Below the pieces are notes generated by a model, which did no database searches, was not told where the DNA came from, and saw only the letters and a program-made list of their open reading frames with translations. Positions 6,270-37,546 of a stretch of DNA of 41,479 nucleotides are shown here, one piece after another (position 1 is the first letter of the stretch; every line of letters begins with the position of its first letter). A program made the position numbers and the translations under genes. This DNA is from Rhodocyclaceae bacterium (GTDB taxonomy: Bacteria; Pseudomonadota; Gammaproteobacteria; Burkholderiales; Rhodocyclaceae): NCBI GenBank assembly GCA_013388985.1, contig JACAEF010000068.1, forward strand, positions 1 to 41,479, in the 5' to 3' direction.

Positions 6270-6294
6270 GTGCCGTCACGCCAGCGCCGATTTT
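6270..6294 (+). repeat. 25-bp dispersed repeat, copy 1
   Basis: GTGCCGT, CACG, then CCAGCGCCGATTTT. One of seven copies in the window. This copy lies just after the cbbO stop and forms one arm of the hairpin at 6278-6306. Confidence 0.8.
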
Positions 6295-6306
6295 CCGCGC
6301 TGGCGT
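6278..6306. terminator. Hairpin just downstream of cbbO (form II operon end)
   Basis: Perfect 10-base inverted repeat (6278-6287 with 6297-6306) immediately after the cbbO stop at 6314. The T-rich tail lies on the plus-strand side (TTTTCGTTTC), so for the cbbMQO transcript it is only a terminator-like stem without a good U-tract. Probably marks the operon end. Confidence 0.45.
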
Positions 6307-6313
6307 TTTCGTT

Positions 6314-8608
6314 TCAACGCGTCAGGCTCAGGTAGAGCATCGGCAGTTGCTCGGGCAAGCGTTCGATGCGGTCGAGGACGCGCCAGCGGGTGCCGAAAAT
6401 CTCGCGCACATACTCGTCGGCCTTCGGGTCGAGCGACAGGCAGAAGGAGGTGACGCCCTGCGCGTCGAGTTCCTCGACGGCCTTCTTTGCATCGGCTTTC
6501 AGATGCTCCGGGTCGGTGACGTCGATGTCGGCCGGTTCGCCGTCGGTGAGCAGCAGCAGGATGCGCTTGTCGGCCTGGCGGGCGGACAGATAATGCCCGG
6601 CATGACGCAGCGCCGCGCCCATGCGCGTCGACCAGCCCGCCGCCATCGCGGCGATGCGCGCCTTGACCTCGTCGTTCCAGCGTTCCGAAAAGCCCTTGAT
6701 GTGCTGATAGCGCACTTCATGACGGGTGTTGGAATGAAAGCCTGCGATGGCGAGCGGGTCGCCGAGCCGGTCGATCGCCCAGGCCAGCAGCGCCACCGCC
6801 TCCTGGGATAGTTCGAGGATAGTCTGTGCCGTTCCGTCAGCGCCGATTTTCTGGTTGAGCGATTCTGACAGATCGACCAAGAGCAGCACGGCGATGTCGC
6901 GCCCGTCGGTGCGATGGCTCATGTTGATGCGCGGATCGGGCTGGCTGCCGGCCTTGAAATCGATGAGCGCGCGCAAGGCCACGTCGAGATCGAGCTCGCT
7001 GCCCTCCTCCTGGTAGCGAATGCGCACCTTGTCCTGCGGCTTCAGGAGATCGAGCAGGCGCTTCAATTGCTTGGCGAGCAGGGCATGCTTGGCGAGCAGT
7101 TTGTCGACATCGGCCGGATTGCCCGAAGGATGCAGCGCTTCATAGACGCTCACCCAGTCCGGGCGGTAGGTCTTGGAGGAATGGTCCCACTCGGGGTAAT
7201 GGCGCGGCGGCAGGCCGACGACCTCGGTTTCCTTTCTGAGCTTCCTGTCGGGATCGTCGAAGAACTCCTCGTCGTCGCTGTCCTCGATGTAGCGCCACAG
7301 ATGCCGGTTGTCGTCGCGGTAATCGACCTCCGTGTCCTCGAAGCGCACGTTCGGCAGCTGGTCGCTCTGGCGGCGCGTCTGTGTAACGTAGGCCAGGGCA
7401 AGTTCCGCGATCTGGCGGGTGCTCGATGGGCCGCTGGCCAGCAGCGCGTGAAAGCGCGCGACCGTCTCGTTGACGGCTGTATCGCGATAGCCGTGCTCGG
7501 GGTCGAGACAGGCACGCGAGAGCATCGCCAGCCGATGGCGCAGACAGGAAGTGGTTTCCGGATCGCAGGCGTCCTCGACGGGTTTCGGATGCAGCGCGAG
7601 GAAGATTTTCCGCAAGCCGGGATATTCGCGGATCAGCAGGGTATCGATGCGCGCATCCTCGAGGAACTCGACCGCCATGCGCTGGAACGGGCTCCAGTTG
7701 TCGGCGATCAGTGGCGCACTCCAGCGCCGGTGGCCGACCATGTGGGCGAGCGTGGCGCGGTAGCGGTCGATGCCGGCTATCCCTCGCGCGTCGTCATAGA
7801 CGTCGGGAACGCGCATCCCCAGCCTGTCGTAGTAAGGCATCGGCCGGCGTAGCTCGTCGAAGGCCGTCGAATACGGCACGAGCTGGTCGCTATCGCCCCA
7901 CAGCGCGCGAAGATAAAGATCGAGCTGACGCTCGACATCGGCGAACAGCGTGCCGTGGCGCTCACGCTGCACGACCGCCCGGCTGTCGGCGAGTTTCAGC
8001 GCGAAATATTCTGTCTGCCGTTCCGGGTGGTGGCGATAGTTACGGATGCCATAGTCGACCCAGTTCCTCATGCCGCCGACCGAGAGCAGGTCGAGCACCC
8101 GTGGCGCCTGCTCGAAGAAGACCGGCAGGCCGGGGCTGGGCAGGGTCGCATGGCTGCCGTGGATCGAGCCGGTGGTGCGCAGCATCAGATCGCGCGCGAT
8201 GTCGAGATAGTGGTGCAGCTGCTCGACCGACTGCAGGCGCCGGGCGACGGCGGCCAGGGTCTGCAGGAACGGCGTGATGGCCTTGCCGTTGGGCGACCTT
8301 TGCATCGCCTTGATGAAGTCGAGCACGGGATCGAGCGCCTCCTTGCCCACCGCCTTGACCACCGACGGCCATTCCTCGAGAAAAACCAGCATCGGCTCGA
8401 CGCCGCGGCCGAGCTTGCCGAGGAAGCGCGCCGCATCGAGGTAGGCATCGAGGTCGGGGCGGTCGATGACCGCGAGCGCCTCGGCCATCATCTCCTCGAA
8501 GACCTCGGCGACCTGGGAAAAGCGCGTATCGAGACGCGCCCAGTATTCCCGCATCAGCGGGTGCTGGTAGTCGCGCAGCGCGGCATCCTGGCAATCGGCA
8601 GCCGTCAT
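6314..8608 (-). CDS. cbbO: CbbO, von Willebrand A RubisCO-activase subunit (form II set)
   Basis: CbbO partners the hexameric AAA+ motor CbbQ as a RubisCO activase that removes inhibitory sugar phosphates from the active site; CbbO recruits the motor to RubisCO. It has 764 residues, normal length. The long N-terminal part is mostly helical. The C-terminal von Willebrand A domain (about 570-760) carries the metal-adhesion site DLSES (about 579-583) and LLLTDGEPADID further on. Directly after DLSES the segment KIGADGTA (587-594) is encoded by a copy of the 25-bp dispersed repeat; the form I-side CbbO is shorter there. The ATG at 8608 lies 8 bases after cbbQ, so the two are surely cotranscribed. 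It ends the cbbMQO operon. Confidence 0.94.
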   Translation of the reverse strand: MTAADCQDAALRDYQHPLMREYWARLDTRFSQVAEVFEEMMAEALAVIDRPDLDAYLDAARFLGKLGRGVEPMLVFLEEWPSVVKAVGKEALDPVLDFIKAMQRSPNGKAITPFLQTLAAVARRLQSVEQLHHYLDIARDLMLRTTGSIHGSHATLPSPGLPVFFEQAPRVLDLLSVGGMRNWVDYGIRNYRHHPERQTEYFALKLADSRAVVQRERHGTLFADVERQLDLYLRALWGDSDQLVPYSTAFDELRRPMPYYDRLGMRVPDVYDDARGIAGIDRYRATLAHMVGHRRWSAPLIADNWSPFQRMAVEFLEDARIDTLLIREYPGLRKIFLALHPKPVEDACDPETTSCLRHRLAMLSRACLDPEHGYRDTAVNETVARFHALLASGPSSTRQIAELALAYVTQTRRQSDQLPNVRFEDTEVDYRDDNRHLWRYIEDSDDEEFFDDPDRKLRKETEVVGLPPRHYPEWDHSSKTYRPDWVSVYEALHPSGNPADVDKLLAKHALLAKQLKRLLDLLKPQDKVRIRYQEEGSELDLDVALRALIDFKAGSQPDPRINMSHRTDGRDIAVLLLVDLSESLNQKIGADGTAQTILELSQEAVALLAWAIDRLGDPLAIAGFHSNTRHEVRYQHIKGFSERWNDEVKARIAAMAAGWSTRMGAALRHAGHYLSARQADKRILLLLTDGEPADIDVTDPEHLKADAKKAVEELDAQGVTSFCLSLDPKADEYVREIFGTRWRVLDRIERLPEQLPMLYLSLTR
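6826..6850 (+). repeat. 25-bp dispersed repeat, copy 2 (inside cbbO)
   Basis: GTGCCGT, TCCG, then TCAGCGCCGATTTT. Lies inside the von Willebrand domain of cbbO, antisense to it, and encodes KIGADGTA in frame right after the metal-site loop. Confidence 0.75.
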
Positions 8609-8616
8609 GACGGCTT

Positions 8617-9420
8617 TCAGACAAAAGTCGTATCGATGGCGTGATCGAGCGTGGCGCGGATGTCGGCGTCGTCGGTGATCGGCCGCACCAGCGCCATGCG
8701 GCAGGCATCGGTCTCCGGCACGCCGCGGCGGATCAGGGTCGCGGCATAGACGAGCAGGCGCGTGGAAATGCCCTCGTCCAGGCCGTGCCCTTTCAGATTG
8801 CGGCCGACCTGGCCGATCTTCACCAGCTTCGCGGCGGTGCCCTCGGCCAGGCCCGTCTCCTGGGCGATGATCGCGGTTTCGAGCTCGGGCGCCGGATAGT
8901 CGAAGTCGAAGGCAGTGAAGCGCTGCTTGGTCGATTGCTTCAAATCCTTCATCAGCGACTGGTAGCCGGGGTTGTAGGAGATGACGAGCTGAAAGTCGGG
9001 GTGCGCCTCGACGAGCTCGCCCTTCTTGTCGAGCGGCAGCACGCGGCGGTGGTCGGTGAGCGGATGGATGACGACCGTGGTGTCCTGGCGCGCCTCGACG
9101 ATCTCGTCGAGGTAGCAGATGGCCCCGATGCGGGCCGCGGTGGTCAGCGGGCCGTCGAGCCAGCGCGTGCCGTTGGCGTCGAGCAGCCAGCGACCGACGA
9201 GATCGGAAGCCGTCATGTCCTCGTTGCAGGCCACCGTGATCAAGGGCTTGCCGAGCTTCCAGGCCATGTATTCGACGAAACGGCTCTTGCCGCAGCCGGT
9301 CGGCCCCTTGACCATCACCGGCAACCGCGCGGCGTAGGCGGCCGCGAAGAGCTCGACCTCCCTGCCCTGCGGTCGATAGAAGGGTTCCTGCTTGACGAGG
9401 TATTGCGTCTTGTCGGTCAT
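8617..9420 (-). CDS. cbbQ: CbbQ, MoxR-type AAA+ ATPase (form II set)
   Basis: AAA+ motor of the CbbQO RubisCO activase. It has 267 residues. Walker A is GPTGCGKS (39-46), Walker B ends CYLDE (102-106), and [19 protein letters not shown] covers sensor 1 and pore-proximal elements typical of CbbQ/NorQ. It lies 77 bases after cbbM and 8 before cbbO, with a terminator-like hairpin in the first gap that would lower its level relative to cbbM. The ribosome site before the ATG at 9420 is weak (AAAGAG). Its paralogue at 16745 is very similar over the whole length. NorQ is the near alternative family, but context decides for CbbQ. Confidence 0.95.
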
Positions 9421-9457
9421 CTCTTTATCCGATCGGAAAAGTCAGGAATAGCCAGCG

Positions 9458-9481: not shown

Positions 9482-9497
9482 CGTGCCCGAAATCGGC

Positions 9498-10980: not shown

Positions 10981-10988
10981 CGTGATCA

Positions 10989-11765
10989 TCATGCTTTGCT
11001 GATGTTTTCGGCATGCCAGCGGCGCAGCAGATCGACATCGACATAGGTCTTGCCATGCATGTCGCCGCGCCTCACCTCGCAAGGCTTGTCCGGCTCGCCC
11101 AGATCCGAGAGCACCGCCAGCGCACCCGAAAAATCGTGGTCGGCCGTATATTCGCTCTCGGTCACGACGGTCGCAAGCCCCGCCGCGAGGCTGGCCTTGA
11201 GACCATTTTCCGAATCCTCGAAGGCGAGGCAGGCCGTTGCCGGCAGGTTCATCTTCTCGAGCACCCACAAGTAAATGTCGGGCGCTGGCTTTTTCTTCGG
11301 CACCACGTCGCCGGCGCCGATCACCTCGAACCAGCGCTCCGCGTCGGGCGCGAGGCTCGCCTTCAACAGACTCGTGACGTTCTCGGGCGTCGTCGTCGTC
11401 GCGATCGCCAGCCTTAGGCCCGCCGCGCGCGCCTCGCGCATCAGCCGTGCCACGCCCGGCTGGAGCGGAATGCCGCCCTTGGCGACGAGCTCGAGATAGT
11501 GTTTGGTCTTCGCCGCATGCAGCGCGCGGATTTGCTCGTCGGCATCGGGGCGCTTCAGGAAATCGGGATCGTGGCGCTCGCAGAAAAAGCGCAGGCGCTC
11601 CTTCCCGCCGGTCACCGCGAGCAGTTCGCCATAGAGTGCGGCGTCCCAATGCCAGGGCAGCCCCGCCTCCGCGAAGGCGGCATTGAAGGCCAGGCGATGG
11701 CCGTCGCGCTCGGTGTCGGCGAGCGTGCCATCGACATCGAAGATCAAAGCTTGCAGGGTTTCCAT
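10989..11765 (-). CDS. cbbY: CbbY, xylulose-1,5-bisphosphate phosphatase (HAD family)
   Basis: HAD-family phosphatase. Characterised CbbY proteins dephosphorylate xylulose 1,5-bisphosphate, a misfire product of RubisCO that blocks its active site, so this enzyme cleans up what CbbQO removes. It has 258 residues with FDVDGTLADTE (D10 nucleophile, D12 acid/base), TTTTPENV as motif II, KKKPAPDIY as motif III and EDSENGLKA as motif IV. The CbbY-typical TGGKER follows the cap start. I chose the ATG at 11765, where the HAD core begins; an in-frame start at 11807 adds 14 residues but would overlap the operator. It lies between cbbM and a divergent cbbR. Phosphoglycolate phosphatase (CbbZ) is the alternative, but TGGKER favours CbbY. 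Confidence 0.88.
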   Translation of the reverse strand: METLQALIFDVDGTLADTERDGHRLAFNAAFAEAGLPWHWDAALYGELLAVTGGKERLRFFCERHDPDFLKRPDADEQIRALHAAKTKHYLELVAKGGIPLQPGVARLMREARAAGLRLAIATTTTPENVTSLLKASLAPDAERWFEVIGAGDVVPKKKPAPDIYLWVLEKMNLPATACLAFEDSENGLKASLAAGLATVVTESEYTADHDFSGALAVLSDLGEPDKPCEVRRGDMHGKTYVDVDLLRRWHAENISKA

Positions 11766-11792
11766 GGCCGCGCAAGATAGCCGCATCCAACC

Positions 11793-11829
11793 ATAAGTAA
11801 CAGTCACGTTTTCTTATTCCAATGATAAG
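11793..11829. promoter_or_regulatory. Putative CbbR operator between cbbY and cbbR
   Basis: ATAAG (11793-11797), N15, CTTAT (11813-11817), N7, ATAAG (11825-11829); AGTCAC at 11802-11807. The same three-half-site layout as at 6171-6207. It is 28 bases from the cbbY ATG and 60 from the cbbR ATG, the usual position for divergent activation plus autoregulation by a LysR-type protein. Confidence 0.72.
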
Positions 11830-11843
11830 ATCGAGGTCATTGC

Positions 11844-11867
11844 AAATCGGCGCTGACGGGACGGCAC
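11844..11867 (-). repeat. 25-bp dispersed repeat, copy 3 (cbbR leader)
   Basis: Read on the minus strand: GTGCCGT, CCCG, then TCAGCGCCGATTT (one T short of consensus). It lies between the operator and the cbbR start codon, so it would be in the 5' leader of that mRNA. Confidence 0.75.
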
Positions 11868-11888
11868 CCGCAGCCAGGAGTGGATGAA

Positions 11889-12818
11889 ATGAAGCATGTC
11901 ACCTTGCGCCAGCTCAGGGTCTTCGAATCCGTCGCGCGCCATTTGTCGTTCTCGCGCGCCGCCGAAGAGCTGCACCTGACGCAGCCCGCCGTGTCGATGC
12001 AGGTCAAGCAGCTCGAGGAGCAGGCCGGCCTGCCGCTCACCGAGATGATCGGCAAGAAGGTCTACCTCACCCAGGCCGGCGAGGAGGTCGCGCGCCACGC
12101 GCGCTACATCGCCCAGCAGCTCAGGGAGGCCGAGGAAGCGCTCGACGCCCTCAAGGGCGTCAAGGGCGGCCGGCTGTCGCTCGGTGTGATCAGCACCGCG
12201 AAATATTTCGCGCCGCGCCTGCTGGCCGAGTTCCGCCGCCGTCAGCCGGGCGTCGAATTGCAGATCGGCGTGCATAACCGCGAAACCGTGGTGCGCAAGC
12301 TCGCTGAGAACGAAATCGATCTGGCGATCATGGGGCAGCCGCCGGTGGAGTTCGCCACGGTGGCCGAGGCGTTCGCCGATCATCCGCTCGTCATCATCGC
12401 CGCGCCGGACCATCCGCTCGCGGCCAGGAAGCAGATCGCACCGGCGCTGCTCAATGACGAGACCTTCATCATCCGCGAACCGGGCTCGGGCACGCGCGCG
12501 GCGATGGAGCGTTATTTCGCCGATGTCGGCATCGCGCCCCAGCACCGCATGGAGCTGATCAGCAACGAAACCGTCAAACAGGCCGTGATGGCCGGTCTTG
12601 GGCTGGCGTTCATTTCCGCGCATACCGTCGGCCTGGAGTGCGAGGTCGGCCGTCTCGTCGTGCTGCCCGTCACCGGCACGCCGATCATGCGGCGCTGGTT
12701 CATCGTCCATCGGGCGGAAAAAGTGCTGTTGCCCGTCGCCGAAACTTTCCGGGAATTTCTGCTGGCCGAGGCACCCGCTCTGCTGTCGGGCCAAAAGACC
12801 TCGCACGCCAACAAATGA
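11889..12818 (+). CDS. cbbR: CbbR, LysR-type regulator (form II side)
   Basis: LysR-family activator of CBB genes; known CbbRs respond to metabolites such as RuBP, PEP or NADPH. N-terminal winged helix: RQLRVFESVARHLSFSRAA then LTQPAVSMQVKQLEEQ, the standard recognition helix with Ser. The effector domain shows the CbbR-typical ISTAKYFAPRLLAEF and REPGSGTR. I chose the ATG at 11889, with AGGAG 8 bases upstream; a GTG at 11880 is in frame but overlaps that site. It has 309 residues. It is transcribed away from cbbY, with a shared operator. The same operator type before fbp and cbbM suggests it also controls those, which is inference. A small hairpin (12816-12837) overlaps its stop codon. Confidence 0.93.
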   Translation: MKHVTLRQLRVFESVARHLSFSRAAEELHLTQPAVSMQVKQLEEQAGLPLTEMIGKKVYLTQAGEEVARHARYIAQQLREAEEALDALKGVKGGRLSLGVISTAKYFAPRLLAEFRRRQPGVELQIGVHNRETVVRKLAENEIDLAIMGQPPVEFATVAEAFADHPLVIIAAPDHPLAARKQIAPALLNDETFIIREPGSGTRAAMERYFADVGIAPQHRMELISNETVKQAVMAGLGLAFISAHTVGLECEVGRLVVLPVTGTPIMRRWFIVHRAEKVLLPVAETFREFLLAEAPALLSGQKTSHANK

Positions 12819-13206: not shown

Positions 13207-13207
13207 G

Positions 13208-14380: not shown

Positions 14381-14414
14381 GCTCCCCTCCCATGCAAATA
14401 CCGCGTTTGCGGAT

Positions 14415-16727
14415 TCATCGCGTCAATCCTGCATACAGCTGCGGCAGTCGCTCGGGCAGGCGCTCGACGTGGTCGAGGATCAGGTAATTGCGCTGGCCGA
14501 AGATGCGCGCCACATACTGGTCGGCGCGCGGGTCGAGCGTCAGGCAGAACGGCATCACGCCGAGGCGCCCGACGTCCTCGACCGCCTTCTTGGCGTCGAA
14601 GCGCAGGTATTGCGGGTCGCGCACGTCGATGTCGGCCGGCTCGCCGTCGGTGACGACGATCAGGAGCTTTTTCTGCGCGCGTACCTGCGAGAGGTGAAAT
14701 CCGGCATGGCGGATCGCCGCGCCCATGCGCGTCGAGAAGCGCCCTTCCATGCCCGCGAGCCGCGCTTTCGGAATCTCGTTCCAGGGCTGGTCGAAATCCT
14801 TGTAGCGCTGGTAGAAGACGTTGTGGCGGCCGTCGGAATAGAAGCCATGCACGGCGAAGGCATCGCCCACCTTGTGGATCGCCTCACCCAGGAGCACCGT
14901 CGCGGCGCGCGTGAGTTCCAGCACCGTGTAGTCCTGCCCTGCCACCTTGTCGTTGGTCGATTCGGAGAGGTCGAGCAGCACCAGGACGGCGATGTCGCGG
15001 GTTTTTCGCACCGAGCGCATCATCACGCGCGGATCCGGCTGCATGCCCATGCGAATGTCGATCAGCGAGCGGATCGCCGCGTTGATGTCGACCTCGTCAC
15101 CCTCCTCGAGCTTACGGATGCGCTGCACGCCCTGTGGCTGGAGCGCATCGAGCAGATGTTTCAGGCGCTGCGTCACCTTGCGATTGTCGTCGATGATCTT
15201 GTCGACGATGGCCAGGTCACCGAACTTCGGCCGCTTTTCCAGCACGGTGGCCCAGGCGGGACGGGCAAGCTGGATGTGGTAGTCGAACTCGTCGTAGTGG
15301 CGCGGCTCGGCGACCGGCTCCTTGCCCTCCTTCTGGTTGAAGGAGATGCCGTCGTCGTCGAAGAACTCGGTGGCGCAGACCCAGATTTCCTGCGCGTCGT
15401 CGCCGGCCGTCTCGACCTCGACTTCATTGACCATCTCCGAGACGCTGACGTATTTCCTGACCTGCTGCTCGGTGGCAAAGCCGGCGGCAATCGCCTGATC
15501 AATGGTGTATTCCTCGTATTCCCAAAGATAGCGGTTGTCATCGCGGTAGGGTGCGGCCTGCACGTCGCGGTAGGGCGAATAGGGCAAGCGGCGCTTCTGA
15601 AATTCCTCGGCAAGCGTCAGGCCCAATTCGAGCGACACCGCGTTCGTCGCCAAATCGGCGTTCGAGAAATTCTCGCGCGCCCAGGCGACGAGCGGATCGG
15701 CATCTTCATAGCTCGGGTCGAGCAGCGCGCGGGCAATGCGGTTGAGATACGCGCCGACCGCTTCGCCCTTCGGCTCGGCGACATGGAACTGCGCCCAGAA
15801 TTCCCTGAGGCGGGGAAAGCGGCGGATCGCCAGCGCCTCGACCCGGGCATCCTCGAAGAGCCCGACGCAGACCTGCTGCAAGGCCGAGAGGCGGTCGGCG
15901 TCGATGCGCGCGGTGGTGGCGACGACATGCGCGGCGCAGTGCGCGGCGGCGGCGCGATAAAGATCCAGTCCGGCGATGCCGTGCCAGTCGTCGTAGGCAT
16001 CCGGCAGATGCAGGAAGAAATCGGCGATGAAGGGCTTGAAGCCCTCGCGCGAATCGAAGTCGCCGGCGGTCGGGCGCATGAAGAAGTCGCGCCCCCACAG
16101 TGCCCGCAAATACATGCCGATGCGGCGGTGGATATCGACGAACAGCGTGCCCTTCCTCTCCTTCTGCAGCATCGTCTTGGCTTCTTCGGATTCCAGCCCG
16201 AAATAGCGCACCTGCTCGTCGAAGTTGGTGCGGTGCGCCTGCGCGCCCCACAGCGCCCAGCGGCGCAAGCCCCCGAGTGTCAGCACACCCAGGAGCTGGT
16301 CGAGATGATCGAGCATCGGCCGCAATCCCCGCGGAGCCTGGCCGAGCAGGACGTTGAGGAGCTGCAGATAGGCGCGAAAGAGCTCCGGGTCGCCCAGGCG
16401 TTTGGCCGCCGTCGGCGCAGTGGCGATCACCCGCTCGATCACCGCCCCCGAGGTGCGCGAGGCGAACTGCAGGCATTGTTGCGCGAAGTCCGCGATCACG
16501 TCCTCGCCGACTTCGCGCGCGACCGCCGGCACTTCCTCGATCCAGGCGGCGACGATGTCGCCGCCGCGGCCCATGCGCGCGAGCGCCGCCGCGCTCTTCA
16601 GCCAGTTGTCGAGGCCGCGCGGGCTGAGAATACGCGCCGCCTCGTGCCATTCGGCTTCGAGCAGCTGCCGGTGACTTTCCGACAGCTCGTCGATCAGTTC
16701 CTGATAGTCGGCGAGGTTCACGCTCAT
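14415..16727 (-). CDS. cbbO: CbbO, von Willebrand A RubisCO-activase subunit (form I set)
   Basis: Second CbbO, the partner of the CbbQ at 16745 in a RubisCO activase. It has 770 residues starting MSVNLADYQ. The N-terminal region is helical. The C-terminal von Willebrand A domain has DLSES (about 583-587) and VVTDGEPADIDVRDPQ. The ATG at 16727 follows GAGGG, 17 bases after the cbbQ stop. Larger in-frame starts exist upstream but run through cbbQ antiparallel-free sequence in another frame and can be discarded. It resembles the CbbO at 6314 throughout but is clearly diverged (for example NDKVAGQDYT where the other has NQKIGADGTAQT), so the two sets are old paralogues, not a recent duplication. 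Followed by the aldolase. Confidence 0.94.
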   Translation of the reverse strand: MSVNLADYQELIDELSESHRQLLEAEWHEAARILSPRGLDNWLKSAAALARMGRGGDIVAAWIEEVPAVAREVGEDVIADFAQQCLQFASRTSGAVIERVIATAPTAAKRLGDPELFRAYLQLLNVLLGQAPRGLRPMLDHLDQLLGVLTLGGLRRWALWGAQAHRTNFDEQVRYFGLESEEAKTMLQKERKGTLFVDIHRRIGMYLRALWGRDFFMRPTAGDFDSREGFKPFIADFFLHLPDAYDDWHGIAGLDLYRAAAAHCAAHVVATTARIDADRLSALQQVCVGLFEDARVEALAIRRFPRLREFWAQFHVAEPKGEAVGAYLNRIARALLDPSYEDADPLVAWARENFSNADLATNAVSLELGLTLAEEFQKRRLPYSPYRDVQAAPYRDDNRYLWEYEEYTIDQAIAAGFATEQQVRKYVSVSEMVNEVEVETAGDDAQEIWVCATEFFDDDGISFNQKEGKEPVAEPRHYDEFDYHIQLARPAWATVLEKRPKFGDLAIVDKIIDDNRKVTQRLKHLLDALQPQGVQRIRKLEEGDEVDINAAIRSLIDIRMGMQPDPRVMMRSVRKTRDIAVLVLLDLSESTNDKVAGQDYTVLELTRAATVLLGEAIHKVGDAFAVHGFYSDGRHNVFYQRYKDFDQPWNEIPKARLAGMEGRFSTRMGAAIRHAGFHLSQVRAQKKLLIVVTDGEPADIDVRDPQYLRFDAKKAVEDVGRLGVMPFCLTLDPRADQYVARIFGQRNYLILDHVERLPERLPQLYAGLTR

Positions 16728-20615: not shown

Positions 20616-20640
20616 AAATTCGGCGCTGGCGACACGGCAC
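20615..20640 (-). repeat. 25-bp dispersed repeat, copy 4 (26 bp)
   Basis: Read on the minus strand: GTGCCGT, GTCG, CCAGCGCCGAATTTT (one extra A). It lies in the 34-base gap between the convergent ends of cbbR and the next gene. Confidence 0.72.
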
Positions 20641-21698: not shown

Positions 21699-24600
21699 TC
21701 AGTTGTCGGTTTTCGCCGTTTCCAGCGCCATGCGCAGGGCGATGCCGCGAGCCGAGACCTCCTCCGCCTTCGCCTTTTCCGGCGGCGCGGTGCGCAGCCG
21801 CTGCGGCGGCACGCCCGCGGCTTCGAGCAGCGCGCGCAGCGTCTCGCTGCGCTGCTGCGCGAGCTCCTGCAATCGGGCATCCGGAATCTCTTCGCGTTCG
21901 CGCAGGCGATCGTACAACACGGCGTAGAAGTCGGCCCCCTTGAGGCGGGACACCTCATCCTCGCTCAAGGTCTTCTTCTCGCGCAGCAGGCCGGAAAGCC
22001 GCGAGACGAGCCTGCCGGCGACGCTTTCTTCGAGCTGGCCGGGATTGGCCTTGCGGAAAGCTTCCTTCAGCGCGGCGAGCTCAGCCGCGCCGAAACGTTC
22101 CTTGTAGAGGGCTTCGAGCGCCTCGCGGACCTTCGGCTGCTGGGTCGACATCGGGCCGGGATCGCCGCTCTCCGGCACCGACTGGCCGGAGCGCACCAGC
22201 ACGGCGCGGCGCAGGCGCACATCCTGCAACGCGCTGCGATCGGCATCGGCATAGACACCGGTCAGCGTGAGCACGAGCTTCGGCCGCTTGCCCAGCGCGG
22301 TGGCGAGTTTCATCGCCCTCTCGCGCTCCGGCGGTGAAAGCTGCATCATCCCTGCCTCGAAAGCGACCTCTTCGAGCGGTTCCCCGCTGCCGAACAGCGC
22401 GCCGAGCGCGCGGAAGGGCGCGGTGACGATCTTGGTCAGGACATTGGTGATCGCCTTCCAGACGAGCGAGCCGTAGCTGAACTGCGGATCGTCGAGGCTG
22501 CCCGAGACCGGCAGGCCGAGATCGATGCGGCCGTCGGAGTCCTGCAGCAGCGCGATCGCCAGATCGAGCGGCAGGTCCTTCGCGCTCGGGCTTTCGACAC
22601 GCTCGCCGAGCACGAGCCGATCCATGATCACCTGATTGTCGCCGGTGAGCTGGCGCTGCTTGATCTTGTATTCGAGATCGAGCGAGAGCTTGCCGGAATC
22701 GATCTTGCGCCCGGCGAACGTCGCCAGATAGGGCGTGAGCCGCGTCATCTCGATGTTGCGGAACTGCACGCGCACATCCAGCCCGTTGGTCGGATTGCCG
22801 AGCTCGACCTGGCCGACGGCGCGCGCCATGCCGTAATCATCGACGGCGCCTTCCAGCTCGATCTGTCCCACCGCCCCGGGCCGGTTCGACAGGCCGGCGA
22901 GGCTGCCCTGCAGATCGTGGATGCGCGTGGCGAACGGCAGGACCAGCGATGCGTCGGCGAAATCCATCTCGCCCTTGACGAAGCGCAGCCGGTCGATGTT
23001 CATCACGAAAGTCGGCGCTGATGACACGGCACCCGCTGCCGGTTTTTCAGCGCTGGCAGCCGGCGATTCCTGAGTGGGCGCCTTCAACACCCTTTTCACG
23101 TTGATGTTCTTGTCCTTGTCGATCAACAGCTGCGTATCGAGACCGGTGAGCACCAGCTCGCCGAGATCGAGCCGATCCGGTGCAAAGGCAAAACGCCGCG
23201 TGGCAAGGCTCCGCCAGGCCAGGAGCGGGCTGGTGCTACCGGGTTCCATCAGGCGCAGATCCTTGAGCGCGAACTCGCCTTTCACGCTCGGCCCCTTCTC
23301 GTCATGGACCGCCCGCCCCTGCATCGACAGCTTGCCATCGGCCAGCGTCAGCGTGGTTTTCGCCGTCAGGAAAGGCTGCGCCGGTTTCAAGGCCAGATTG
23401 GCGAGCCGGAATTCGGCCTCGGCCGCGGCGGTGGCCGGCACGATCCGGCCTTGCGCCTCGAAGCGGCCGCCGCTGGCGACATCGAAAGAAAGCTTCACCG
23501 GCAGCGGCGCGCTCATGTCCTGGCTCACGCCCGCCGCCTCCGCCACGAGATGCTCGAGCGCGAGCTCGAACGCGGGCTGAACGCCGGTGTCGCGCAGCTG
23601 CAGGCCGAGATCGGCCACCTCGACCTGCTCCAGCCGGTAGCGCCAGGGCTTCGCGGTCTCACCGGCGGGCGCGGCCGTCGGCGCCGGTGCCGGCCTGGCG
23701 GGAGCAAGCGTCTTCAATGCCTCGACGAGGTCGAGGCGGCCCTCTCTGTCGCGTTGCAGTTGGACGCGCCCGCCGTCGAGCCGGACCTTGCCGACCGACG
23801 CCATGCGCTCGGCGAGCGCGACCTGGATGTCCTCGACATTCAGCGTGGCGAATCGTGGCGACGGCTCGATGCCCGGCAGCGCGAGCTGGCCGTTACCAAG
23901 GCTCACCGCGGCGATGGCCAATCGCTGGTCGGCGAGTGCGAAGCGGCCGTCCCTGAGCTCGACCGATTCGATGCTGGCCACCGGGCCGGCCGCCTCCTTG
24001 AGCGGGATGCGCAGGCCGGCCAATTTTGCCTGGAGACGATCGACCCGCGCATCGAAACGGCTGCCGTCATTGCCCGCCTGGATATCCGCGGAAAGCGCCA
24101 GTACCCCTTCCGGCGGCGCCGGCAGCGCGGCCTCGAGATAAGGCCCCAGCTTGGCGAGCTGCAGGTCGGCGAGCTCCAGATGCCCGGAAATACGCAGCGG
24201 GTCGAGATCGAGCTTGCCCGCCAGCTCGATGCGCGCGCCGAGCGCCGTGCGCGCGGCGAGCCGGTACTGGCCTTCCTGATCCGGCAGCGTCGACAGTTCC
24301 GTCAGTTCCAGGTCGAGCGGCTCGATGCGCGTGCCGAAGCCTTCGGCGGTGCGGCGCCGGTCGGCATAGTCGATCCTGCCATTGGCCAGTACGAAACTGC
24401 GGATCTCGAGCCGTGGCAGACCTTTCTTCTCCTCGGGCTTTTCTTCCCTGCTCTGCAGCGCATCGAGGAAGGGCGTCCAGTTGAGCTTGCCGGCGGGGAG
24501 CTCGATCAGTGTGGCCGCCAGCCCGTCGATGCGGATCGCGTCGAACACCAGCGCGCGCTGCGTCAGGCTCGCCGCGGACAGGTCGACCAGCAGGCCATCG

Positions 24601-30344: not shown

Positions 30345-31867
30345 GACGCCGGCGCATCTGACCGCTGCGCCCGGTATTCGCGTTCGGCGATCAGTTTCGC
30401 CCAGGCAAGAGGACTTGCCGGAGAATCGGCGAACAGGCCAAAGGCCAGGGTGAAGGTCGCAGTAATCAGCGGTGGCAACAGCAGCAGCCAGGCAGTTTCG
30501 TGCCAGGGGCGCGCCGGGATGTGTTCGTCTGGCCAGGCAAGGAGCCGTGGCCGGAACCAGACGCGCCAGAGAATCGGCAGGAAGTAGGCCGCATTCAGCA
30601 GGCTGGAAGTCCATAATACCCAGACCGCCCAGCCCATGCCGGCCGCCGCAGCGCCCGCCGACAGCCAGGCTTTGCTGACCGCGCCCGCCGTGGCCGGCAC
30701 GCCGATCATGCCCAAGGCTGCGATCGTAAAGGCAATCGTGGTGAGCGGCATGCGCCGGCCGGCACCGTCCATCTCGCTGACCTTGTGGATGCCGAGGGTT
30801 TCCGCGTAGTTGCCGGCGCAGAAGAACAGCGTGATCTTCATGATGCCCTGATGCACCAGATGCACCAGCCCGCCGATCGTGCCGATGGGACCGAACAGCG
30901 CGACGCCGAGCGCGATGTAGGAGACCTGACTGACGGTTGAATAGGCCAGGCGCTTTTTCAGGTCGTCCTGGAACAGGGCGCGGAAGCTGCCCCAGACGAT
31001 GGTGATGGCGGCGAGGATGGCCAGCGGCGTCAGCAGGTCGAGCGCTTGCGCGAATTCGACGCCATAGATTTCATAGACGATGCGCACGATGCCGAAGGCG
31101 CCCGCCTTGACCACGGCCACCGCGTGCAAGAGGGCAGACACCGGCGCCGGCGCCACCATCGCCTGTGGCAGCCAGCCGTGCAACGGCACCAGCGCCGCCT
31201 TGACGCCCACGCCGGCGATCAGCAGCAGAAAGATGGTCTTCAGCTGGATGGCCTGTTCCGGTCCAAGCGCGGCGGCGATGCCGGTGTGGGCGAATTCCGT
31301 ATGGCCGAGCAGGTGATGCAGCCAGACGATGCCGGTCAGCAAGGCCGTGCCGCCGGCCAGCGTGTAGGCGAGGTAGATCGTGCCGCCTTTCATCGCCTTG
31401 TCGGTGCCGCGGTGGACGACGAGCGGAAAGGTCGACAGCGTCAGCAGTTCGTAGAAGACGAAGAAGGTAAACAGATTCGCCGCCATCGCGATGCCCATCG
31501 TCGCCGTGACGCACAGGCTGAAGAAGCCGAAGAAGCGGCTGCGGTGCGGCGCGCCTTCGAGATAGCCAATCGCATAGAGCGTCGTAAACAGCCACAGCAC
31601 CGCCGAGAGCGTGATGAACAACAGTCCCAGCGCATCGGCCTTGAAGGCGAGATCGAGGCCCGGCAGCACGGCCAGGCGCACCCCGTATTCCGTGCCGGCT
31701 GCCACGCCCGCCAGCAACACTCCCACCAGGACGAGCTTGGCGATGGCGCCGACCAGGTTGAGCGTCGTGCGCAGCCCGATCCAGCCTTCGGGCAGCACGA
31801 AGATGATCAAACCCGGCAGCAGCGAGGAGGCGAGCACCGCGAGCGGCAGCCATTCGTTGGCCGTCAT
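30329..31867 (-). CDS. Second proton-antiporter-like subunit (MrpD/NuoL-type, D2)
   Basis: A 512-residue, about 14-helix protein of the MrpA/MrpD/NuoL-M-N antiporter-like group. Key charged positions: E140 in FVFYELLTLSTFP (the helix-5 Glu), K223 in GVKAALVPLHGWLP with H230, and K254 in AVVKAGAFG. LHGWLPQAMVAPAPVSALLHAVAVVKAG is the family signature. Charged proton-path residues are thus complete. It is neither a full MrpA (which is about 800 residues with a C-terminal MrpB-like part) nor a repeat of its neighbour. Starts at 31867, overlapping the MrpD stop by four bases (ATGA), and is the last gene of the run. It presumably replaces the large MrpA subunit. Confidence 0.87.
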   Translation of the reverse strand: MTANEWLPLAVLASSLLPGLIIFVLPEGWIGLRTTLNLVGAIAKLVLVGVLLAGVAAGTEYGVRLAVLPGLDLAFKADALGLLFITLSAVLWLFTTLYAIGYLEGAPHRSRFFGFFSLCVTATMGIAMAANLFTFFVFYELLTLSTFPLVVHRGTDKAMKGGTIYLAYTLAGGTALLTGIVWLHHLLGHTEFAHTGIAAALGPEQAIQLKTIFLLLIAGVGVKAALVPLHGWLPQAMVAPAPVSALLHAVAVVKAGAFGIVRIVYEIYGVEFAQALDLLTPLAILAAITIVWGSFRALFQDDLKKRLAYSTVSQVSYIALGVALFGPIGTIGGLVHLVHQGIMKITLFFCAGNYAETLGIHKVSEMDGAGRRMPLTTIAFTIAALGMIGVPATAGAVSKAWLSAGAAAAGMGWAVWVLWTSSLLNAAYFLPILWRVWFRPRLLAWPDEHIPARPWHETAWLLLLPPLITATFTLAFGLFADSPASPLAWAKLIAEREYRAQRSDAPASPPHE

Positions 31868-33279
31868 GCGCCCGCTCCCAGCAAGCGCACCAGATCGACG
31901 CCGCGCAGGCCCAGCAGCACGCTCGCGGCGGCAAGCAGGAAGGCCACCCATTCGAGCCTGCGCGGCACGGATTTCACCACCGCATCCGCTGGCGCGAGCA
32001 GGAAGGCCTGACGCAGCACGCGGAACACATACACCGCCGCGAGCAGGCCGCCGGCCAGCACTACCGCGACCAGCCCCCAATGGCCGCGGTCCAGCGCCGC
32101 CTCGATCAGCAGCCATTTGGCGAGGAAACCCGCCGAAGGCGGCAGCCCCATCAAGGTCATGCCGGCTAGCCCGAAGGCGAACAGCGTCAGTGGCAGGTGG
32201 CCGGCAGCGCCGGACAGGTCCATCACCGATTCACGTCCGGTCGCCTCGATGATCACGCCGGCAGCGACGAACATGGCCGCCTTGGCCAGGCCGTGCGCGA
32301 ACGCCTGCATGATGCCGGCTTCGAGCGCGTCCGTCCCCGGCAGCAGCGGAAAGATCAGGAACAGATAACCGAGCTGGGCCACGGTGGAATAGGCGATCAG
32401 CCGCTTCAAGCGTTCCGCGCGGATCGCCTGCCAGGATCCCCAGAGGATCGCCAGCGCGCCCAGCAGCGCAGGCAGCCAGGCAATGGCGGAGGTCAAGGGC
32501 GCCAGCGGCCCGAGCCACAGCCGCAGGATCAGATAGAACGACGCCTTCACCACCAGGGCGGAGAGCAGCGCCGATACGGGCGCCGGCGCGTTGCCGTGCG
32601 CGGACGGCAGCCAGGTGTGAAACGGAAACAATGCCGTCTTCACCATCAGGCCGGCGAGCATCAGACCGCCCGCGATCCACACGAGGCGCGGCGCATCGCT
32701 CGTCACCAGGGGCGTCAGGATCGCGATCGACACCGTCCCATAAGCGCCATGGATCAGCGCCACGCCGAGCAGATACAGCCCGGAGCCGACCAGCGTGGCG
32801 AACAGGTAGCGCAAGGCCGCGGCCACCTGCTGCGCTCCGCCGCCGGCGGCGACCAGACCGACCGCCGCGAGACCGACCAGTTCGAGCGTCACATAGAGAT
32901 TGAACAGATCGGCGGAGAGAAAGAGCGCATTCAGTCCGGCGATCAGGAACCCGGCGAGCGGCCAGAAATACGCTCCTGCCGCGTCACCTCGCTTGAAATA
33001 GGCACCGGCATGGATCGCCAGCGGCAGCGCGATGCATTGCACCAGCAACAGCATCACGGCCGACAGCCCGTCGGCGGCGAGGTCGATGCCCAGCGGCGCT
33101 CCCCAGCCGCCCACCGGATGGAGGAGTGCCGTCCCGCCAGCGCCGACTTTCGCAGCCAAGTCGAACGCGAGCCATGCCTGCGCCGACAGACCTCCGATCG
33201 CCAGCCATTTGCCACGCCCCGGCCCAAGCACGAAGGCGAGGCTGGCCCAGGCGAGCGGCAGCAGGATCAAGCCCGTCAT
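31864..33279 (-). CDS. mrpD: Mrp-type antiporter subunit D
   Basis: A 471-residue subunit, MrpD/NuoN-like. E133 in LFNLYVTLELVGL and K214 in GLMVKTALFPFHTWLP correspond to the essential Glu/Lys pair of MrpD; H221 and K245 are also present. Residues 44-51 (KVGAGGTA) are encoded by a copy of the 25-bp dispersed repeat. These residues lie in a loop between the first helices. The start at 33279 overlaps the MrpC stop by four bases (ATGA). In Mrp complexes such subunits form the ion channels of a multi-subunit Na+(or K+)/H+ antiporter in the inner membrane. Confidence 0.92.
   Translation of the reverse strand: MTGLILLPLAWASLAFVLGPGRGKWLAIGGLSAQAWLAFDLAAKVGAGGTALLHPVGGWGAPLGIDLAADGLSAVMLLLVQCIALPLAIHAGAYFKRGDAAGAYFWPLAGFLIAGLNALFLSADLFNLYVTLELVGLAAVGLVAAGGGAQQVAAALRYLFATLVGSGLYLLGVALIHGAYGTVSIAILTPLVTSDAPRLVWIAGGLMLAGLMVKTALFPFHTWLPSAHGNAPAPVSALLSALVVKASFYLILRLWLGPLAPLTSAIAWLPALLGALAILWGSWQAIRAERLKRLIAYSTVAQLGYLFLIFPLLPGTDALEAGIMQAFAHGLAKAAMFVAAGVIIEATGRESVMDLSGAAGHLPLTLFAFGLAGMTLMGLPPSAGFLAKWLLIEAALDRGHWGLVAVVLAGGLLAAVYVFRVLRQAFLLAPADAVVKSVPRRLEWVAFLLAAASVLLGLRGVDLVRLLGAGA
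33126..33150 (+). repeat. 25-bp dispersed repeat, copy 6 (inside mrpD)
   Basis: GTGCCGT, CCCG, CCAGCGCCGACTTT. Identical over all 25 bases to copy 7 at 36901. Antisense to the gene; encodes KVGAGGTA. Confidence 0.85.
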
Positions 33280-34467: not shown

Positions 34468-34766
34468 GGCGAATCCCTGCGCCAGGGTTTTACACCGAGA
34501 TGTGCGGCGCGCCGCGCGATCGCATAGCTCACCGCGCTGCTGGCCGCCAGTGCCAGCGGCCAGATCAACAGGAGTTTCAGGCTGACGGCGAGATCCTCCG
34601 CCTGTAGCGCCAGACCGAGCAGCACGCAGCCCAGGCCCAGATTGTCGGCCTTGGCAAGGGCATGCAGGCGGCTATAGACATCGGGAAAGCGCAGCAGGCC
34701 CAGCGTGCCGGCGGCATAGAAGAGGGCGCCGACGATCGGCAACAGCGTGCCGATGGCGTCAATCAT
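34464..34766 (-). CDS. mrpG: Mrp-type antiporter subunit G
   Basis: A 100-residue subunit with three helices. GTLGLLRFPDVYSRLHALAKADNLG is the MrpG/MnhG signature. I chose the ATG at 34766 because the GGGGG ribosome site stands 6 bases before it; the ATG at 34772 touches that site. It overlaps the end of mrpF by 8 bases and the DUF4040 start by four. Confidence 0.92.
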   Translation of the reverse strand: MIDAIGTLLPIVGALFYAAGTLGLLRFPDVYSRLHALAKADNLGLGCVLLGLALQAEDLAVSLKLLLIWPLALAASSAVSYAIARRAAHLGVKPWRRDSP

Positions 34767-35025
34767 GACCATCCCCCTGCCAGGCGCGCTTGGCGAACGC
34801 GACGCCGCCGATCGCCGCCAGCAACGCCAGCAGCAGCGCGACGTCGACGAGGGTGGGCATACCCATTGCCTGTGCCAGCAAGACGAGGATGCCGGTGCCG
34901 GTGGAACCGAACAGCAGCGCCATCAGCATGCGGTCGGCCGCCGTCGGCCCGCGCGCCGCCGCGACGAGCGCCACGACCAGATTGCCGAGCAGGAACAGGG
35001 CGATCGCTAGATCGATCGAGTTCAT
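34759..35025 (-). CDS. mrpF: Mrp-type antiporter subunit F
   Basis: An 88-residue subunit with three helices. ARGPTAADRMLMALLFGSTGTGILVLLAQ (24-52) is the MrpF signature with the conserved PTAADR. The ATG at 35025 overlaps the mrpE stop (35022) by four bases. Confidence 0.92.
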   Translation of the reverse strand: MNSIDLAIALFLLGNLVVALVAAARGPTAADRMLMALLFGSTGTGILVLLAQAMGMPTLVDVALLLALLAAIGGVAFAKRAWQGDGHD

Positions 35026-35489
35026 GCGCCGACTCCGAACAAGGCGGCGATGCGCAACTCCAGCGCGCGCGCCTCCGCCGCGACCGGCAGCCGGACATCG
35101 AGCGCATGCACGCGCAGGCGGCCGTCCGCCAGTTCGACGCCCACCGTGCCCGGCATCAGGCCGAGCGTGTAAGTCAGCAGAATCTGCGGCGCGCCGTCCG
35201 GAAGAATGAGCGCCAAGTCGATCAGGCCGGGCGTCAACGCGCGTCTGCCGCGCAGCGCCATCGCCGCGACTTGCAGGCCACCGCGCACGGAATTGACGAC
35301 GAAGAAGGCAAGAAAGCCCGGCAGGGCGGTCAGACGCACACGATATGCGCGCGGCGGCCAGAGTTTCACGCTCGACCAGGTCGCCGCGACGACCGCGACG
35401 CCCCCCAGCAGCCAGCCGTCGCGATGGCCTTCCGCCAGCAGCCACCAAAGGCCGGCGAACGACAGGACACGCTCGAGGAGTTGCATCAT
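35022..35489 (-). CDS. mrpE: Mrp-type antiporter subunit E
   Basis: A 155-residue subunit with two to three N-terminal helices and a soluble C-terminal domain. LPGFLAFFVVNSVRGGLQVAAMALRG and LTYTLGLMPGTVGVELADGRLRVHALDV are typical MrpE. The start is ATGATG at 35489/35486, overlapping the stop of the Gcr-like gene (ATGA); either ATG is possible. It opens the antiporter block but has no promoter of its own that I can see, so it is cotranscribed with the gene before it. Confidence 0.9.
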   Translation of the reverse strand: MMQLLERVLSFAGLWWLLAEGHRDGWLLGGVAVVAATWSSVKLWPPRAYRVRLTALPGFLAFFVVNSVRGGLQVAAMALRGRRALTPGLIDLALILPDGAPQILLTYTLGLMPGTVGVELADGRLRVHALDVRLPVAAEARALELRIAALFGVGA

Positions 35490-37546
35490 GACGTCATCCG
35501 ATCCTGCCGCGACCCACCCCCGCGCGATGTCGGCGGCTCGTGCCCGGTCGCCGAGACAGCCGCGCGCGGCGGCAGGAAGAAATCTCCGGGGTGCGTCAGG
35601 CATCGCCACAGGATCGCCCGCACCAGGCGTAAGCGCTGCCGCAAATCGACGCCGCGCGCCTTGAGGCCGATCCACATGGCGAGCGAAAAGCTGACGACGA
35701 GATTCGTCACGCCGATCAGCAGCACGCCGAGGGCCGCGAGCGCCGCCGTTTGCCAGGCTACGTCGAATTCGAGGCCGGCCAGCGCATAGCCCCAATACGC
35801 CGAAGAAAACGCGATATGGCGAATGTCGAGCGGCAATCCCAGCAGCATGCCCACGCCAGCGGTTCCGCCGAGCAGGAAACCGAAGAAGAAGTTGCCGGCC
35901 AGCGCACCGAGATTGTTGCCGATGTAGTCGGTGATGCGCCGCCAGCGCTCCCGGCCAAACAGCCGCCGTGGCCAGCCGAGCCGATCGAGACGCTGGGGAA
36001 TGCGGTTGTAGGCGCACAGATTGTCGTAATAGCCGGCGATCAGGCCGGCGAGAAACAGACAAACGCCCGCCACCGCGGCGAACAGAATGGCGCCGCTGGC
36101 GATGGGGTCGCTATCCTGCAGAAGTATCCTCGCCTTCTCGGCAGCGACGTAAGGCGCGCTCGTCAGCCATCGGAACAGCAGTCCACCGAGAATGGCGACC
36201 GGTACCGCCAGTCCGACATTGCCGAGGATCGCCGCCAGCTGGGTGCGCACCGTGCGGGCGACGAGGTCGACGACCGGCGATGGATCGCGCTGGCGCCCCT
36301 TGCCACCCGCCTGCATGTCACCGATGGCGGCGGCGATGGCATTCGCGGTCATTGCGGGCTGTTTGGTGGCGACGGTGAAATGCAGCAGGTGAATGAGCAT
36401 GAAGCCGAGGCTGTAGTTGAGGCAGTAGGCCAACACTTCGGTCAGCGGCGCCAAACCCAGTGTACCCAGATGGAGCTTGTTGGCGGCCATCAGTGCGATG
36501 ATGATGCCGCCGCCGGCGGCAGAGCGCAGCATCGCAAACCAGTCGGCGCGGGTTTCGCCAATGTAATGCTCACCGCTCTTGCCCGCGTTCTCTGTCACGC
36601 GCAGCGCCACCAACTCGGTGTTTTCACGCCAGAAGCCGATCAGATCGTCGCGGTGACTGGCGGCGATCGCCAATTCCCGCCAGAGCACGGCGCCTTGCGC
36701 GCGCGCATCGCCGGGACGATGGTTGGCCAATGCCTCGGCCAACAGAGTCAGGCGCTCCAGCCGGTCGAGATGCTGGGCGAGCCGGCGCAGGCGGAAAGTC
36801 AGATGGAAACTCGCCCCCAATTGTCGGGCGCGACGACGTACCCGATCACCTGCCGCACGTGCCTGATCGATCAGCACATGCAGATGGCGGACATCGGCGG
36901 GTGCCGTCCCGCCAGCGCCGACTTTTGCTTCGACCGCCTGGGCGAAGGCCAGCGCCTCCTCGCACAACGCGAGATAGGGAGAAACATGGTTCTCCAGCGT
37001 CGGGTCGAGTCGCAGCATTTCCGGTTCGAGACCCGCCGCTGCAATCCGATGGGCCACGACGCGCAAGGCTTCGAGCAGATCTTCGTTGAAACGATGCGCG
37101 GCGAGCTCGCCAGCGGCTTCATCGAGATGCAAGGCAGCGATGACCGCTGCCCATTCGCTCTCTGGAACCTCTGTCAGCCAGGAAGCATCGCGTGCCTGGA
37201 TGATGTGTTCCAGAGCCCCCTTGAGCTGGTCGCCTTCATCCGCCTCGGGCAGCAGGCGATGTGCCAGACGCCGGAAGGTTTCGCTGAAGAAGCCGGTGGC
37301 GGGATAGATGCCCACCGTGGCGAACAACAAGACGGCATGGCGATGGATGACCAGCTCGAGCAACACCCCGCGCAGGGCGGCACGCAGATCGGGACGCGCC
37401 TGCAACAGCTCGGCCAGCGCACGCACGTTGTCCGCCGGCGCCATGCCATGTGCCGGGCGGAGTTCCGCCATCAGTGCCGTGAGCGCATCGAGCGATTCGA
37501 CATGGGGATCGAGCAGCAAGCACAGGGTATCGACCAGTCGACTCAT
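35486..37546 (-). CDS. Gcr-like membrane protein, annotated in databases as site-specific recombinase
   Basis: A 686-residue protein of the SpecificRecomb (COG4389) family. The name goes back to a gonococcal gene; I see no recombinase catalytic motif. The N-terminal half (1 to about 330) is soluble and helical. The C-terminal half has about eight membrane segments (for example GGGIIIALMAANKL, LAVPVAILGGLLF, AILFAAVAGVCLFLAGLIAGYYDN). FSSAYWGYALAGLEFDVAWQ is a family-like motif. Residues 208-215 (KVGAGGTA) come from a copy of the 25-bp repeat. It overlaps mrpE by four bases and follows the P-type ATPase by 15, so it is in the antiporter operon. An envelope or ion-transport role is more likely than DNA recombination. 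Confidence 0.82.
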   Translation of the reverse strand: MSRLVDTLCLLLDPHVESLDALTALMAELRPAHGMAPADNVRALAELLQARPDLRAALRGVLLELVIHRHAVLLFATVGIYPATGFFSETFRRLAHRLLPEADEGDQLKGALEHIIQARDASWLTEVPESEWAAVIAALHLDEAAGELAAHRFNEDLLEALRVVAHRIAAAGLEPEMLRLDPTLENHVSPYLALCEEALAFAQAVEAKVGAGGTAPADVRHLHVLIDQARAAGDRVRRRARQLGASFHLTFRLRRLAQHLDRLERLTLLAEALANHRPGDARAQGAVLWRELAIAASHRDDLIGFWRENTELVALRVTENAGKSGEHYIGETRADWFAMLRSAAGGGIIIALMAANKLHLGTLGLAPLTEVLAYCLNYSLGFMLIHLLHFTVATKQPAMTANAIAAAIGDMQAGGKGRQRDPSPVVDLVARTVRTQLAAILGNVGLAVPVAILGGLLFRWLTSAPYVAAEKARILLQDSDPIASGAILFAAVAGVCLFLAGLIAGYYDNLCAYNRIPQRLDRLGWPRRLFGRERWRRITDYIGNNLGALAGNFFFGFLLGGTAGVGMLLGLPLDIRHIAFSSAYWGYALAGLEFDVAWQTAALAALGVLLIGVTNLVVSFSLAMWIGLKARGVDLRQRLRLVRAILWRCLTHPGDFFLPPRAAVSATGHEPPTSRGGGSRQDRMTS
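36901..36925 (+). repeat. 25-bp dispersed repeat, copy 7 (inside the Gcr-like gene)
   Basis: GTGCCGT, CCCG, CCAGCGCCGACTTT. Identical to copy 6. Antisense to the gene; encodes KVGAGGTA, the same peptide as in mrpD, although the two proteins are unrelated. Confidence 0.85.

Follow-up and report, generated by a model that had tools for sequence, protein, structure and literature searches.

A 25-bp, dialect-forming repeat dispersed through Rhodocyclaceae genomes as a candidate uptake-type self-recognition sequence

Seven copies of a 25-bp repeat around cbbO and neighbouring genes

The window analysed here, meaning the whole 41,479-nucleotide stretch of contig JACAEF010000068.1 from a Rhodocyclaceae bacterium (assembly GCA_013388985.1), was found to contain seven copies of an asymmetric 25-bp motif with the consensus GTGCCGT-NNNN-YCAGCGCCGA-YTTT, for which a role as a self-recognition signal in DNA uptake is weighed below. 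No further copy was identified in the window at up to three mismatches, and 100 dinucleotide shuffles of the window gave a mean of 0.01 motif match. All seven copies listed in an earlier sequence-only reading of the window proved to be real, with the starts of two of them corrected by one base (11843 instead of 11844 and 20616 instead of 20615), and its observation that the four-base spacer ends in CG in six of the seven copies was borne out.

Three of the copies are situated in gaps between genes, as that reading had placed them. Copy 1 (6270..6294, plus strand) lies between two codirectional minus-strand genes, cbbO (6314-8608) and its neighbour at 4901-5938. Copy 3 (11843..11867, minus strand) lies 5' of a LysR-type gene (11880-12818, plus) in the divergent gap that separates it from a HAD-type gene (10989-11807, minus), and copy 4 (20616..20640, minus strand) lies in a convergent gap. 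Copies 3 and 4 carry one mismatch each to the consensus (last base G and A replacing Y). Genomes are denoted below by G numbers, the host being G000, and stretches of DNA fetched from genomes by L numbers. Behind the CbbO stop codon, the site of copy 1, a motif was found at about the same place in 12 of 89 CbbO loci, a set that leaves out a single locus whose match was shorter and includes some genomes twice. Copy 3 is shared with G002 but absent from G001, G011, G016 and L088, whose alignments show gaps.

The remaining four copies lie in open frame inside genes. Copy 2 (6826..6850, plus strand) is located in a loop of CbbO, where it encodes KIGADGTA, and motifs of several dialects occupy this loop in 12 of the 89 loci. 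Copy 5 (23008..23032, minus strand) is found in a gene for a DUF748/AsmA-like protein (21699-24842), where it uses another frame and reads GAVSSAPTF as part of a linker whose length varies. Copy 6 (33126..33150, plus strand), in a gene for a PF00361 antiporter-type subunit (31864-33279, minus), and copy 7 (36901..36925, plus strand), in a PF10136 'SpecificRecomb' gene (35486-37546, minus), both encode KVGAGGTA and were confirmed as identical across all 25 bases. The previously described peptide pattern K(V/I)GA(G/D)GTA is present in three of these four copies, and the proposal that in-gene copies fall in loops or linkers holds for CbbO and DUF748, the two genes checked.

Abundance and distribution of the motif

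A search of the host genome, a 2.897-Mb draft, with a 21-base pattern at up to two mismatches gave 602 matches (283 forward, 319 reverse) compared to 3 for the reversed pattern used as the control, while the 25-base pattern gave 559 (264 and 295 on the two strands) compared to none. This corresponds to a density of approximately 200 per Mb, or about one copy per 5 kb, and a chance origin genome-wide is excluded. Counts no higher than expected, which the sequence-only reading had named as a result that would refute its proposal, were not what was found.

Judged by CbbO, the closest named relatives of the host are Rhodocyclaceae metagenome-assembled genomes. The distribution of the motif is genus- and family-wide but patchy. 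Among 18 same-genus relatives, 17 were found to have 127-684 matches, the exception being G005 with 6 (3 in the control). A family-wide pattern gave more than 100 matches in 21 of 199 genomes (the host's own included) belonging to six genera, with controls of 0 or 1; for each genus sampled, such genomes numbered 6/6 (g1), 5/5 (g2), 4/4 (g332), 4/4 (g350), 1/1 (g295) and 1/1 (g324), and all 15 sampled members of the five genera other than the host's were motif-rich. Intermediate counts were obtained for G445 (52), G423 (34), G456 (16) and G591 (14), with 9 matches or fewer in the remainder of the 199 genomes. Across a class-wide spread of 369 genomes the GT-dialect 25-mer was enriched in the host's own genome only, a search that other dialects would escape. 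The congener G005 (genome 87% complete) possesses ComEC, DprA and type IV pilins and lacks the motif: 100 kb of its DNA contained not a single site, and none of its 11-mers was strongly enriched. It is thus a natural negative control.

Dialects and in-place rewriting

Consensus sequences of individual lineages were derived from fetched stretches, in which reversed controls at up to four mismatches gave 0-2 matches and some lineages contributed few sites (9-19). These consensus sequences were found to differ as dialects. That of G000 and its close kin reads GTGCCGT..CGCCAGCGCCGACTTT, that of G004 CACCGTCCCGCC.. (19 sites in 60 kb), that of G016 CGCCGCCYCGCCAGCGCCGAGTTT (14 sites in 56 kb), that of G438 TCGCCGT..GACTTTT (9 sites in 40 kb) and that of G445 CAGCGTCGACTTTT (12 sites in 96 kb), G513 having a form that diverges further still (4 sites at up to four mismatches in 59 kb).

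At the CbbO loop and the site behind the stop codon, the motif of each lineage was found in its own spelling, with both sites occupied only in G000 and G017 among the 89 loci. Within 36 kb of G016, four of eight sites were alignable, and at each of these four one or more relatives carry a motif in a different dialect, some other relatives carrying no motif there. Orthologous places carry different dialects, and the sites are therefore old and have undergone rewriting in place. Between G002 and G017 (approximately 88% identity), the fixed positions of the motif are 92% identical, compared to 80% for the spacer and 80-85% for the flanks (84 observations at sites with 0-1 mismatch), values that are perhaps slightly inflated by the choice of sites for their match in one genome.

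Spacing, strand and placement

The stretches examined for spacing total 434 kb (G000), 815 kb (G017) and 440 kb (G002). These genomes are congeners and hence not independent of one another; values below are given in this order. The coefficient of variation (CV) of the gaps between sites was 0.72, 0.63 and 0.62, compared to 0.92, 0.89 and 0.91 for random placement, with only 4, 0 and 1 of 1000 random simulations being as even as observed. Random placement matched by genic or intergenic class gave CVs of 0.93, 0.90 and 0.91. Sets of 405, 366 and 439 real 8-mers about as frequent as the motif gave 0.99, 0.98 and 0.96, with 1, 0 and 0 of these words being as even. Gaps shorter than 1 kb made up 3%, 8% and 7%, compared to 17%, 18% and 15% at random.

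The single contig of G017 carries 278 and 288 matches on its two strands, and counts of approximately 73 and 80 on the leading and lagging strands of G017 stretches covering part of the chromosome revealed no replication bias (one overlapping stretch was left out of the strand sum, and origin and terminus were placed by GC skew only). Using gene calls from a simple purpose-made codon-usage gene caller, sites not fully inside a predicted gene were found to number 36 of 86 in G000, 48 of 150 in G017 and 21 of 62 in G002, with non-coding DNA making up 14-16% of the sequence. The motif is thus in excess between genes, yet many copies are genic (50 of the 86 in G000). Convergent gaps contained more sites than divergent gaps in G000 (11 in 9.4 kb vs 4 in 10.1 kb) and G017 (15 in 23.4 kb vs 4 in 20.0 kb), the two not being clearly different in G002 (4 in 10.6 kb vs 3 in 11.7 kb), and no consistent gene-strand preference was identified in these three genomes. 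Two G017 stretches, C1 550001-570000 (L175) and 1900001-1920000 (L185), hold no motif copy and have a GC content of 0.559 and 0.693, respectively, compared to approximately 0.63; these are possibly acquired DNA.

Interpretation as an uptake-type signal

The DNA uptake sequences (DUS) of the Neisseriaceae occur in hundreds to thousands of copies, on both strands, in lineage dialects and in both genic and intergenic positions (PMC3630211). The uptake signal sequences (USS) of the Pasteurellaceae have a consensus that is longer and discontinuous, are evenly spaced, show no bias of orientation and are in excess in non-coding DNA (PMC1939737 and PMC12616744). The motif resembles DUS in all four of these respects, and it likewise shares the long discontinuous consensus, absence of orientation bias, even spacing and non-coding excess of USS. 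The sequence TGCCGTC is common to the motif and to DUS (ATGCCGTCTGAA), which may be due to chance. Differences from DUS are the length of 25 bp with a four-base variable spacer (10-12 bp in DUS), the lower density of approximately 200 per Mb, the lack of a CTG core at the matching place and the fact that most of the motif genomes are without a detected stand-alone ComEA. From USS the motif differs in being unrelated in sequence, in being GC-rich where USS is AT-flanked and in belonging to a different class of bacteria.

The genome-wide signal suggested by the sequence-only reading is strongly supported by the approximately 600 copies, their even spacing, lineage dialects, rewriting in place and conserved positions. 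Copy number, lack of strand bias, even spacing, non-coding excess, conserved positions and dialects are traits of DUS and USS, and the repeat is therefore probably a new uptake-type self-recognition sequence, one that would work as these do. Copy number, occurrence on both strands, even spacing, dialects, rewriting in place, position-specific conservation, location bias and the presence of genes for ComEC, DprA and type IV pilins are direct observations, from which an uptake function, a receptor and molecular drive are inferred.

In such a system, the 25-bp site would be bound by a putative receptor that belongs to the natural-transformation machinery and may be a type IV minor pilin, resulting in the preferred import of motif-bearing DNA. 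Imported fragments would recombine with the chromosome, and repeated uptake would favour well-matching alleles (molecular drive), acting mainly where sequence can vary, namely in loops, linkers and intergenic gaps. A single site on each fragment would suffice and close neighbours would bring no gain, which would lead to even spacing at about one site per 5 kb. Drift of receptor specificity within a lineage would cause sites to be rewritten in place, giving rise to a dialect.

Transformation machinery, phages and site turnover

Among 30 family genomes, ComEC and pilin-type N-termini were identified in all 30 and DprA in 29 (the exception being G019). Several observations weigh against an uptake-type signal, however. 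ComEC, DprA and pilins are present equally in the motif-free G005 and in other motif-poor genomes, so that the machinery is no predictor of the motif; competence genes were rejected in that role, with ComEC occurring in 30 of 30. Short HHH_3 proteins exceeding the cut-off were taken as stand-alone ComEA and were found only in G464 among 18 motif-rich genomes (G000-G004, G007, G009, G011, G016, G017, G019, G409, G438, G445, G446, G464, G500 and G512), matches in G002 and G009 falling short of the cut-off. The 11 motif-poor genomes examined (G005, G021, G023, G408, G412, G414, G423, G436, G444, G450 and G462; G513 was in neither set) include six with such a protein by PF12836 and five by TIGR00426. 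Other HHH_3 matches were frames of 620-1237 residues, which are presumably Tex-like. Stand-alone ComEA is the usual partner of uptake and does not form part of the definition of DUS or USS; its scarcity here speaks either against an uptake system of the textbook kind or for a different receptor of DNA. Comparison of the pilins of G000 and G005 yielded no receptor candidate, with 9 of 28 pilin loci giving no reading frame, and we know of no uptake experiment in these bacteria. The motif is not classed here as a proven DUS or USS, because stand-alone ComEA was mostly not found and biased uptake is inferred.

The motif is also carried by some phages, which likewise weighs against this reading. 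At least 120 stretches of virus-labelled contigs contain the exact motif, and among the 80 stretches listed and scanned, 42 have one site at up to four mismatches and five have four or more. Three of these five have phage genes, coding for a tail-tip J protein (L341), a primase-type protein (L356) and a match to family A DNA polymerase (L398), with four to five motif copies each, while two proteins tested from each of the other two (L327 and L352) gave no Pfam match. These contigs were chosen for having the motif and demonstrate that phages can carry it, its frequency or depletion among phages not being readable from such a sample. On phage contig L341 (883-2238), five exact copies lie in one orientation beside short open frames, with a spacing of 316, 316, 316 and 385 bp.

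The turnover of sites adds to these points. A first comparison of non-shared sites gave gaps inside the motif in 76 cases and pure substitutions in 15, many of the alignments being poor. Moreover, the CbbO loop is approximately two residues longer in motif carriers than in motif-free homologues, and alignment gaps of 12-23 bases run across the motif of the cbbR leader in motif-free relatives. Small insertions and deletions therefore share in the gain and loss of sites. An estimate for DNA unaligned between G002 and G017 revealed no clear depletion of the motif.

Alternative explanations

The main rival to an uptake-type signal is an intracellular chromosome-organising site, where a sequence-specific nucleoid or condensation protein would bind about one site per 5 kb, the spacing would set loop size and dialects would reflect changes in the protein. 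Even spacing fits the anchoring of loops, and Karlin et al. (as cited in PMC1939737) read the even spacing of USS as chromosome organisation. The rarity of stand-alone ComEA and the ability of phages to carry the motif likewise favour this explanation, which is nevertheless regarded as unlikely, as the congener G005 lives without the motif and the joint rewriting of hundreds of sites is harder to explain without drive. Furthermore, the motif is asymmetric and hairpin-free, in which it is unlike most dimer-bound nucleoid sites. Of the signal types named in the sequence-only reading, nucleoid-protein binding keeps its place in this form, whereas uptake is favoured over segregation by the absence of strand bias in one complete genome. 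Sites directing replication or segregation, comparable to FtsK orienting polar sequences (KOPS) or Chi, would be abundant, short and genome-wide as the motif is, but the near-equal leading and lagging counts in G017 (73 and 80) and strand counts (278 and 288) render them very improbable, and KOPS- and Chi-like sites are far shorter than 25 bp.

The sequence-only reading had offered a tiny mobile repeat as its other possibility. Such a repeat would be copied by a transposase or through an RNA intermediate in the manner of the small dispersed repeats (SDR) of Nostoc or of repetitive extragenic palindromic (REP) elements and REPINs. The SDR are 21-27 bp long, occur in many genic and intergenic copies and are thought to insert; the motif is similar in length, copy number and context, and differs in its even spacing and in that no clean 25-bp empty sites were seen. 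PMC3116915 names the SDR of Nostoc and treats REP and REPIN, with the REP-associated tyrosine transposase (RAYT), as short repeats. The motif does not qualify as such an element despite being a short repeat, as it is not palindromic, is common inside genes (50 of 86 sites) and has no PF01797 (Y1/RAYT-type transposase) match in the host G000. The linkage to RAYT that had been suggested is thus unsupported, and such matches were absent from 11 of the 18 motif-rich genomes in all, G000 included. Folding revealed no hairpin in the 25-mer, and a hairpin reading of it was rejected.

Insertion as a mobile unit would be in keeping with the longer CbbO loop, the cbbR-leader gaps of 12-23 bases in several motif-free relatives and a derived hairpin array built on the motif in G002 and G017. 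However, in the comparison of G002 and G017, 200 site observations at up to four mismatches comprised 134 that were shared (of 155 alignable), 21 missing in the partner and 45 unalignable. Among the 21, which include weak sites with three to four mismatches, seven differ by 17-45 bp (five at the hairpin array and two in poorly aligned DNA) and none is a clean 25-bp insertion or empty site, a test limited by the species-level divergence of the pair. No clean 25-bp insertion was identified either in 21 well-flanked cases (most at one CbbO site) of 207 non-shared pairs, and at one site substitutions alone distinguish both G002 and G017 from G016. Together with even spacing and the distribution of transposases, these results make a mobile repeat improbable.

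The derived unit of G017 and G002 (e.g. L133, the G017 cbbO loop, and L247-L286) is approximately 54 bp long and sometimes tandem, consisting of the motif, a short loop, an inverted motif variant (GTCGGCGCCCGGCGGG), ACGTC..TTT and the 3' part of the motif again. It forms a strong hairpin (-39.7 kcal/mol for the 55-nt form, z -6.6), a feature in which it resembles REP and REPIN, and one unit lies in frame inside the cbbO of G017. Its inverted core was counted 13 times in 835 kb of G017, with one occurrence lying apart from any unit, and 14 times in the 440 kb from G002; it was not identified in the stretches fetched from other genomes.

An origin of the motif as a side effect of codon use, or of a peptide that is common, would be in keeping with KVGAGGTA being the commonest in-gene reading (18 of 50 genic sites in G000). 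As a main cause this is excluded, and in any form it has a negligible probability, given that 36 of the 86 G000 sites are not fully genic and that every one of the six combinations of frame and strand is used in this genome. In CbbO homologues free of the DNA motif the peptide was found to be lacking (KAAGS at Thiobacillus loci); the sequence-only reading had named its equal conservation in distant homologues of this kind as a result that would refute its proposal.

Further sequence features

Searches of the window identified no Rfam family and no tRNA. Window positions 14403-15163 and 16770-17531 share 67% and 77% DNA identity, respectively, with parts of the cbbO-cbbQ region (6314-9420), which suggests a second, paralogous cbbQ/cbbO-type pair. 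Stretches L171-L190 of G017 contain another over-represented word, AATGGACAATCTGGG, with approximately 13 copies in 400 kb and well under 1 expected.

Implications for the Rhodocyclaceae

Literature searches, which covered few subscription journals, returned no paper joining Rhodocyclaceae and 'uptake sequence', no paper in which a 13- or 15-base piece of the motif is printed and, for natural transformation and competence in Rhodocyclales, one unrelated match. To our knowledge, this kind of signal has been described in only two other bacterial families. There is about an even chance that the Rhodocyclaceae constitute a third self-tagging family, with a 25-bp, dialect-forming and evenly spaced tag alongside a machinery that mostly has no recognisable stand-alone ComEA; a reader of a new sort would therefore have to exist, either a new uptake receptor or a chromosome-spacing protein. 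If the reading is true, the motif could help the laboratory transformation of Rhodocyclaceae. The family would then provide a third system that is independent and comes from environmental bacteria; with its several dialects and the motif-free congener G005 as a natural control, comparisons could test why uptake sequences exist, a long-argued question, be it for mate recognition, through drive or for a chromosome function.

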